A DNA stretch of 53,233 nt from Sulfurimonas sp. Its GTDB lineage: Bacteria > Campylobacterota > Campylobacteria > Campylobacterales > Sulfurimonadaceae. The stretch spans positions 1-53,233 of the forward strand of contig JALSUU010000260.1 in NCBI GenBank assembly GCA_027071075.1, written 5' to 3'. Under the pieces are notes generated by a model, which was given only the letters and a program-made list of their open reading frames with translations, searched no databases and was not told the origin of the DNA. Made by a program: the position numbers and the translations under genes. This document shows, in pieces, positions 20,537 through 21,878 of the stretch (its first letter is position 1; each line of letters starts with the position of its first letter).

Positions 20537-20643
20537 ATAAAAACCTTTTATATTATTTTTTGAAATTCTATCTAAAAAGAGTTAAAATTACTATGTTTAT
20601 AGAGTACTTTTTTTTATAAAAGTTTTTTTTATGCTTAAAAGTG

Positions 20644-20649
20644 TATAAT
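20644..20649 (+). promoter_or_regulatory. Sigma-70 type -10 box upstream of the inverted-repeat element
   Basis: TATAAT is preceded by two T8 runs about a helical turn apart (20609-20616 and 20623-20630), the usual epsilonproteobacterial promoter layout. The predicted start, near 20655-20657, falls 2-4 bp before the element at 20659, so the element would form the leader of the diguanylate cyclase transcript. Confidence 0.65.
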
Positions 20650-20658
20650 TTGCATAAA

Positions 20659-20927
20659 TAGACTTCTTTCATAACCTAGATATATCTCAGAGGGAAGAAA
20701 AAAAGATGAGATTGTGTAAAATCTTTTTCTTAGCGTAGCCGTAGCTACGGTAATAATAAGTTTTATGCAAGGTCGCTTTTTTTATCCCTCCCTACGGGCA
20801 CTTTATAGAGAGTTTTACTCAGCGTTAGATAACCTTCACCGTAGCTACAGCTACGCTGAAGAACATCTGCCTTGATTAAAATTCTCTATAAAGTGCTGAG
20901 ATATATCTAGGTTATGAAAGAAGTCTA
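20659..20927. mobile_element. 269-bp MITE-like element with perfect 32-bp terminal inverted repeats
   Basis: The ends are exact complements: 20659-20690 (beginning TAGACTTCTTTCATAACC) and 20896-20927. Both outermost dinucleotides are TA, so a 30-bp inverted repeat flanked by a TA duplication is also consistent, as for IS630/Tc1-mariner-type elements. No open frame lies inside. Two further inverted pairs are internal: 20731-20751 with 20838-20858 (19 of 21), and 20798-20817 with 20877-20896 (19 of 20). These pairs interleave, so they cannot both form in a simple fold. A CCGTAGCTACGG palindrome lies at 20739-20750. The 400-bp gap between aroG and the cyclase gene holds only promoters and this element. 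Confidence 0.85.
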
Positions 20928-20936
20928 ATAACTTTT

Positions 20937-21878
20937 ATGGAGTGCTTTCATTTGAATAAATCTGACCTTAAATCTCTTGTAACACAGATGTATGAAGACC
21001 TACTCTCAAGTATTGATAATCAGGAGTATGCAAATAAAGATGATGTAGTCCATTATCTTCAAGATGCGGTAAATACTATCTCTTCTATTGATACAGAAAG
21101 TATTGACTCACTTGAGCAAGCACGCGCTGCATTTACAAACACCTTTAAAGAGATTGCAAAAAAAAGTATTTCAGAGTATAGTAGCACCAATGGTCGATTT
21201 AAAGAGCTTACACAAGAGCATCAAAAAACTATTGAAGAGTGTAATGATGTTCACATAGATTTATCTTCTATAACACATAAATTTAATGATATACAAGATC
21301 ATATGACCCAAGAGGTTGGAAGAGCCAACCAAGTTATCACAGACTTAAGTAATAAAATTCAAGTTTTGGAAAGAAGTTCTAACTTAGATTCTCTTACGCG
21401 TGTTCTTAATAGAAGAGCATTAACAACTTATTTGCAAAAACTTTGTCAAAGAAAGACTATTAAAGATGAACTGCATCTTCTTATTCTAGATATTGATGAT
21501 TTTAAAGTAGTGAATGATACTTATGGGCATATAGCTGGGGATAAAATTCTTATTTTTATTGCAAATATTTTGAGAAAAACACTTCGAGATGGAGACAAAG
21601 TTTTTAGATATGGTGGAGAAGAATTTATTATCATTTTAAATCGTATTGAGTCTGATGCATGTGTTGAGATATCAAATAGAATTTTAAAAATCATCAGTTC
21701 AAATCAACTTATTTATAAGGGTGAATCTCTAAAAGTCACTATGAGTATAGGCGCTACTAAGTTTTATTCTGGAGATACACCTGATTCACTTATTCATAGA
21801 GCAGATACAGCCCTTTACAAATCTAAAAAAGCAGGAAAAAATCAAATGAACTCGGAGTTAAAACCAGATGGACATTAA
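20937..21878 (+). CDS. Diguanylate cyclase (soluble, GGDEF domain)
   Basis: About 313 residues. A helical N-terminal part (1-145), coiled-coil near 110-145, precedes a GGDEF domain (about 148-305). The active site is GGEEF at 226-230 and an inhibitory-site RDGD lies at 217-220, exactly five residues upstream, so product inhibition is expected. It makes cyclic di-GMP. The start is unsure. ATG at 20937 has no good ribosome site and abuts the mobile element. TTG at 20952 (LNKSDLK) has GGAG nine bases upstream and may be the real start. It overlaps cvpA by 11 bp and opens the cvpA-fur-lysS group. Confidence 0.9.
   Translation: MECFHLNKSDLKSLVTQMYEDLLSSIDNQEYANKDDVVHYLQDAVNTISSIDTESIDSLEQARAAFTNTFKEIAKKSISEYSSTNGRFKELTQEHQKTIEECNDVHIDLSSITHKFNDIQDHMTQEVGRANQVITDLSNKIQVLERSSNLDSLTRVLNRRALTTYLQKLCQRKTIKDELHLLILDIDDFKVVNDTYGHIAGDKILIFIANILRKTLRDGDKVFRYGGEEFIIILNRIESDACVEISNRILKIISSNQLIYKGESLKVTMSIGATKFYSGDTPDSLIHRADTALYKSKKAGKNQMNSELKPDGH

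Follow-up and report, generated by a model that had tools for sequence, protein, structure and literature searches.

The inverted-repeat feature upstream of the GGDEF gene dgc in the window, i.e., the whole stretch of 53,233 nucleotides from Sulfurimonas sp. that was analysed, is most probably a 267-bp non-autonomous transposable element of the MITE type, which inserted into a short dgc leader and duplicated the trinucleotide AAT. This identity, deduced from sequence comparisons, is argued for by the dispersed multicopy occurrence of the element, terminal inverted repeats (TIRs) in common with an insertion sequence (IS) of the IS5 family, a 3-bp target duplication, the absence of coding capacity, and the existence of related loci free of the element. 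The ordinary part of this account, namely, a MITE-type element landed in a leader, is well supported. The unusual part is a structured core with exchangeable ends across the class, together with a sense bias in one genus, and the function of this core is unproven.

Architecture of the element and its position before dgc

The inverted repeat reported earlier in the dgc leader region is indeed present at 20659-20927, where perfect terminal inverted repeats of 32 bp enclose two inner hairpin lobes, named A and B. The features of the region, all on the plus strand, are as follows.

20618..20637, +, A/T-rich stretch AAAAGTTTTTTTTATGCTTA upstream of the -10 box, kept in many dgc orthologues without the element
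20644..20649, +, -10 box TATAAT of the dgc promoter, conserved in orthologues
20657..20659, +, left copy of the target duplication AAT, assigned from the flanks and the family rule
20660..20690, +, left terminal inverted repeat, the outer ~18 bp of which are the end of an IS5-family insertion sequence
20691..20789, +, lobe A hairpin with a stem, an internal loop AUUGUG/UGCAAG and the tip TAGCCGTAGCTA, from folds and alignment
20777..20783, +, T7 tract that follows the upper portion of lobe A and resembles a terminator on the sense strand, with an AU-rich base
20790..20798, +, mini-hairpin CCC-TAC-GGG between the lobes, with CCC/GGG pairs, one of them showing double-sided changes
20798..20896, +, lobe B hairpin with the invariant internal loop ACTCnGCGTT / GCCTTGATT, from covariation in 49 copies
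20896..20926, +, right terminal inverted repeat
20927..20929, +, right copy of the target duplication AAT
20939..20942, +, Shine-Dalgarno sequence GGAG, outside the element
20951..21878, +, dgc gene (GGDEF; Pfam GGDEF, E=2.3e-44)

The outer arms (20659-20690 and 20896-20927) are 100% complementary over 32 nt. As RNA, the element folds to -137.6 kcal/mol, with a z value of -17.7 versus dinucleotide shuffles, which places its structure far beyond chance, and it folds far better than shuffles on both strands. Two other pairs of arms, 20798-20821/20873-20896 (24 nt, 92% complementary) and 20732-20751/20838-20857 (20 nt, 95%), had been read as alternative stems. They exist and do cross, because the tips of both lobes bear related palindromes, but each arm is a local palindrome that pairs inside its own lobe, and forced cross-pairing costs ~27 kcal/mol, for an ensemble probability of ~2e-19, so that the crossing stems are not competitive. 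The sequence described as terminator-like, AAAGAT...ATCTTTTT, is likewise present at 20700-20731, although its hairpin is weak (-3.9 to -6.1 kcal/mol). No ORF of 60 amino acids lies within the 267-bp element, and Rfam covariance models gave zero matches to it at the gathering score, and chance-level matches only in E-value mode. An integron attC site was considered and rejected; although GCGTTAGAT is similar to an attC core site, the other cores do not preserve this motif and no paired partner site was seen.

With regard to the dgc promoter, the earlier note had postulated a strong promoter with TATAAT at 20644. The box is there and is conserved in orthologues, but the promoter scores below 9/12 in a sigma-70 scan. 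Campylobacter jejuni promoters display an A/T-periodic pattern with no clear -35 box, and the leaders of this species are mostly 20-50 nt long (PMC3656092); the dgc -10 box and the A/T-rich stretch upstream fit this usual promoter type of the class (PMC3656092). Transcription of dgc would be expected to start near 20655-20657. Being located between the -10 box and the ribosome-binding site, the element should form part of the 5' leader of dgc, in agreement with what had been proposed. Comparison with orthologues indicates that the gene likely starts at the TTG at 20951, rather than at the ATG at 20937. The latter overlaps the dgc ribosome-binding site.

Orthologues of dgc occur in 85 of 100 Sulfurimonas genomes. 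Among the 30 dgc loci that were read, the full element is absent from all except the window locus; the other 29 keep the -10 box, which indicates that the promoter predates the insertion, and the A/T-rich stretch before it is often kept as well. The Shine-Dalgarno/start region adopts an identical fold with and without the element. Of note, the locus of the closest orthologue (L127 in G001, 79% protein identity) carries the 20-nt sequence TAGACTTCTTGCAGAGTCTA right after TATAATTTGCAT, ~30-50 nt upstream of the start, which is probably left over from this insertion or from a second one at nearly the same place.

Copies, exchangeable ends and a conserved core

The genome from which the window originates contains three copies of 98-100% identity (100, 99 and 98%), two divergent copies, and many short TIR-TIR derivatives of 45-55 bp with hardly any sequence between the two terminal repeats. 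Several of these short forms have their junction at CTTCTT, a motif common to the repeat and the interior, and would therefore have arisen from the long form by deletion. Beyond this genome, matches were obtained in 20 of 60 relatives, with hits extending to another family of the order (70% identity), and long copies, which align over their full length, in 36 of 135 Sulfurimonas genomes. The 3-bp target duplication (AAT or ATT, once AGT) is exact in 42 of 83 copies, as compared with 19 of 83 expected with shuffled flanks and a maximum of 31 in 2000 shuffles; AAT is found on both sides of the window copy. The genes downstream of the copies, among which valS, rimO, argH and tatB, have unrelated and partly essential functions. 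At one site in three species (L164, L173 and L051), the element is present in each within related flanks (65-97% identity), and the joined flanks make an open frame, which points to an ancient insertion that was retained or to a spurious ORF. No published description of the family was found in a literature search outside subscription journals.

The outer 18 bp of the element's ends are identical to those of a 908-bp insertion sequence of a sister species (G074:C23:7255-8162), whose IS5-family transposase is encoded in two frames and comprises HTH_Tnp_4 and DDE_Tnp_4 domains. An IS5-family transposase would thus be predicted to move the element via these outer ~18 bp. In the assembly containing the window, no complete transposase of this type was found; a fragment of a related one lies at the end of a contig and shows no terminal repeat, so that the partner may be lost or unassembled. 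This genome has no transposase of the family PF01609.

Some copies keep the core with different ends, AGGGCACCTCTAAAAACC instead of AGACTTCTTTCATAACC, and these second ends occur on another IS5-family insertion sequence of 1260 bp (G074:C167). In the genome G026, the core of L171, which bears a variant of the second ends, shares 95% identity with the core of L167, which bears the first ends; it follows that the ends were swapped on both sides of one core. Additional end types, namely TATTACCGCACCAACT, AACTGACCTTACGCACC and TAAGTAATGAGGCATA, were noticed on elements of the same build at L345-L354 (G360) and L380-L383 (G160), for which no corresponding transposase turned up, and a search for autonomous partners of the ends TATTACCGCACCAACT and AACTGACCTTACGCAC found none. 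The loci L112, L113 and L125 (G063, G074) possess the same IS5-type ends enclosing quite different palindromes, e.g., GATTGCTTC...GCAATGACG and GTCATTCTGAACTTGATTTAGAATC, and it thus appears that several hairpin cargoes wear these ends.

The core itself measures ~215 nt and comprises the two lobes, the helices of which covary around invariant internal loops. In the covariation analysis of homologues, recommended beforehand as a check, 22 of the 33 pairs of lobe B undergo double-sided changes among 49 non-redundant copies, and the strands ACUCnGCGUU and GCCUUGAUU are nearly invariant. A covariance model of lobe B matches 38 of 298 genomes of the class, which represent 15 genera; several genomes hold at least ten copies. 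These class-wide elements again mostly measure 265-276 bp, some with other end types. The lobe B model also recognises the reverse complement of lobe A in certain genomes, at 52-61 bits, and the element therefore looks like an inverted duplicate of one unit. The core is not an evident remnant of the interior of an insertion sequence and would represent a separate conserved module that has acquired ends from two or more insertion sequences. A 25-nt unit, TACCCCAAGGGCATTTCCTGCGGGC, is inserted close to the lobe A tip in L159, L168, L190, L172 and L169, and a related sequence occurs alone in the genome of the window (L204, C97); this unit is a nested small repeat.

Insertion sites, orientation and competing explanations

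The Sulfurimonas copies are distributed as 37 between divergent genes, 43 in tandem, 2 convergent and 9 within called ORFs, counts that include a few copies from one other family. In tandem settings, 36 of 43 copies are oriented in the direction of transcription, and once Sulfurimonas loci with related flanks are joined the sense orientation is found in 32 of 39 (p=7e-5); by end type, the bias amounts to 19/25 and 9/10. The right end of the sense tandem copies is separated from the start codon by a median of 25 nt. An exact TATAAT lies within 24 nt upstream in 10 of 38 copies versus 53 of 516 control sites (p=0.006), and a TATAAT with one mismatch in 25 of 38 versus 196 of 516 (p=0.001), in a comparison whose control sites are not entirely independent and whose genes were delimited with a simple ORF rule. 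The stop codon of the upstream gene is also near in tandem pairs (median 13 nt), so that some copies lie within operons rather than following a dedicated promoter. In a mainly non-Sulfurimonas set, which includes 8 convergent sites, the sense ratio is 14:8 and not significant, and the bias may therefore be local. An outward promoter as the source of the sense bias was rejected, as the TATAAA of the right end is absent from cores with the other ends.

Copies lie 11-63 nt upstream of the start of genes that are unrelated and in part essential, at 14-24 nt in the case of rimO, valS and argH. From this position, the element is either read through at these loci or contains a transcription start, and a strong terminator within it is unlikely, given the short distances to rimO, valS and argH. 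Partial attenuation at lobe A is possible according to the folding models, because on the sense strand this lobe forms a hairpin followed by T7; in the window, the hairpin preceding the T tract reaches -23.8 kcal/mol, with G-C in only 2 of the basal 10 positions.

The earlier note had further suggested that the leader could work as a switch or an attenuator of c-di-GMP synthesis. Its leader position and the succession of lobe A and T7 would suit a device dedicated to dgc, but the 27 kcal/mol penalty leaves no competing antiterminator structure, the full element is missing from the other 29 dgc loci, the same element precedes the unrelated genes cited above, and Rfam offers no match. We consequently regard this proposal as highly improbable. 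The plain MITE view, for its part, does not predict the sense orientation in 32 of 39 tandem loci, nor the invariant internal loops between covarying helices. As a rival explanation, the core could be a functional cis-acting RNA in leaders, acting on stability, processing or partial termination, selected in the sense direction and spread by transposon ends. The 32:7 sense ratio in independent tandem loci, seen with both end types, the 37 divergent versus 2 convergent sites, the covarying stems with their invariant loops, and the enrichment of copies just downstream of exact -10 boxes all speak for such a role, as does the hairpin before the T tract, whose sense-strand version is the stronger one in 32 of 36 copies. 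However, folds of the whole element differ little between strands (sense better in 24 of 36), the ratio outside Sulfurimonas is not significant, and the copies are patchy, with unrelated genes downstream. Furthermore, selection on one RNA strand would make G-U exceptions outnumber A-C exceptions, whereas 70 and 87, respectively, were counted in strand-neutral pairs; these nearly equal numbers give no sign of RNA-strand selection and leave the function of the core unproven. A count of 236 to 44, which had seemed to reveal such selection, was discarded as an artefact of a strand-specific fold, since it is gone with strand-neutral pairs. On balance, we consider a functional RNA core rather unlikely.

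The near equality of G-U and A-C exceptions fits an upkeep at the DNA level, where a protein binding the hairpin or cruciform, or the repair of either arm from the other, would keep the pairing with no RNA role, and where the bias in site and orientation would come from target choice or the loss of harmful insertions. The resemblance of lobe A to an inverted copy of lobe B and the joint change of both arms of the ends are in line with this explanation, which we hold as a tentative one, below an even chance; by itself, it leaves the sense orientation and the strand-specific conserved loops unexplained. As a broader proposal, the elements could constitute a Campylobacteria-wide family of mobile, transcribed double-hairpin modules, whose ~215-nt core swaps IS ends and is kept in sense in leaders as a ready-made 5' untranslated region, a scenario that we deem quite unlikely.

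Returning to the inserted MITE-type element, the dgc transcript would begin a few bases before the left repeat and carry the element as one closed multi-branched hairpin, leaving the fold of the Shine-Dalgarno region unchanged. Its 31-bp double-stranded base could serve as an RNase III substrate, by analogy with the Correia/NEMIS elements. The effect on dgc expression would be modest, through a slight attenuation at lobe A or an altered mRNA stability, and would not amount to an adapted c-di-GMP switch.

Significance and relation to known elements

The usual view of bacterial MITEs is that each derives by deletion from a single insertion sequence. In the present family, a structured core of constant size (elements mostly of 265-276 bp) is associated with at least two sets of IS ends, and probably more, in 15 genera. 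What is new is this presence of a core on at least two kinds of transposon end, along with its covarying helices, its spread over 15 genera and the sense bias in Sulfurimonas. The element thus provides a testable case of either a useful leader module carried by a transposable element or a strong filtering by transcription, and it cautions against annotating such a leader as a riboswitch.

Insertion sequences of the IS5 family are the source of the outer ~18 bp of the element's ends, but carry a transposase gene, which the element lacks. MITEAba12 of Acinetobacter, derived from ISAba12, has a near-constant length and AT-rich targets, is mobilised via ends shared with the insertion sequence, and may affect neighbouring genes (PMC6382973). 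The element resembles it in its constant length, AT-rich target sites and ends in common with an insertion sequence. However, MITEAba12 is ~113 bp long, with a 9-bp target duplication, a weak structure of -24 to -27 kcal/mol and an outward promoter (PMC6382973), whereas the duplication here is 3 bp, the fold reaches -137 kcal/mol, and no conserved outward promoter was seen in the element. Correia/NEMIS of Neisseria are small multicopy MITEs with TIRs, which are cotranscribed with adjacent genes and at whose TIRs RNase III cuts the mRNA (PMC10969869, PMC2229807). The present element is likewise small, multicopy and of the MITE type with TIRs, and cotranscription and RNase III cleavage may by analogy apply to it. 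Compared by description only, Correia/NEMIS differ in measuring about 105-155 bp with a 24-bp paired TIR (PMC2229807), as opposed to ~270 bp, two conserved lobes and several alternative ends. Finally, the RNA of the CIR repeats of Caulobacter and Brucella has been modelled as two linker-joined arms (PMC2229807). These repeats, unlike the element, are without a stem formed by pairing of the two ends and contain the GANTC methylation motif (PMC2229807), and the likeness between them lies in the two-arm RNA.
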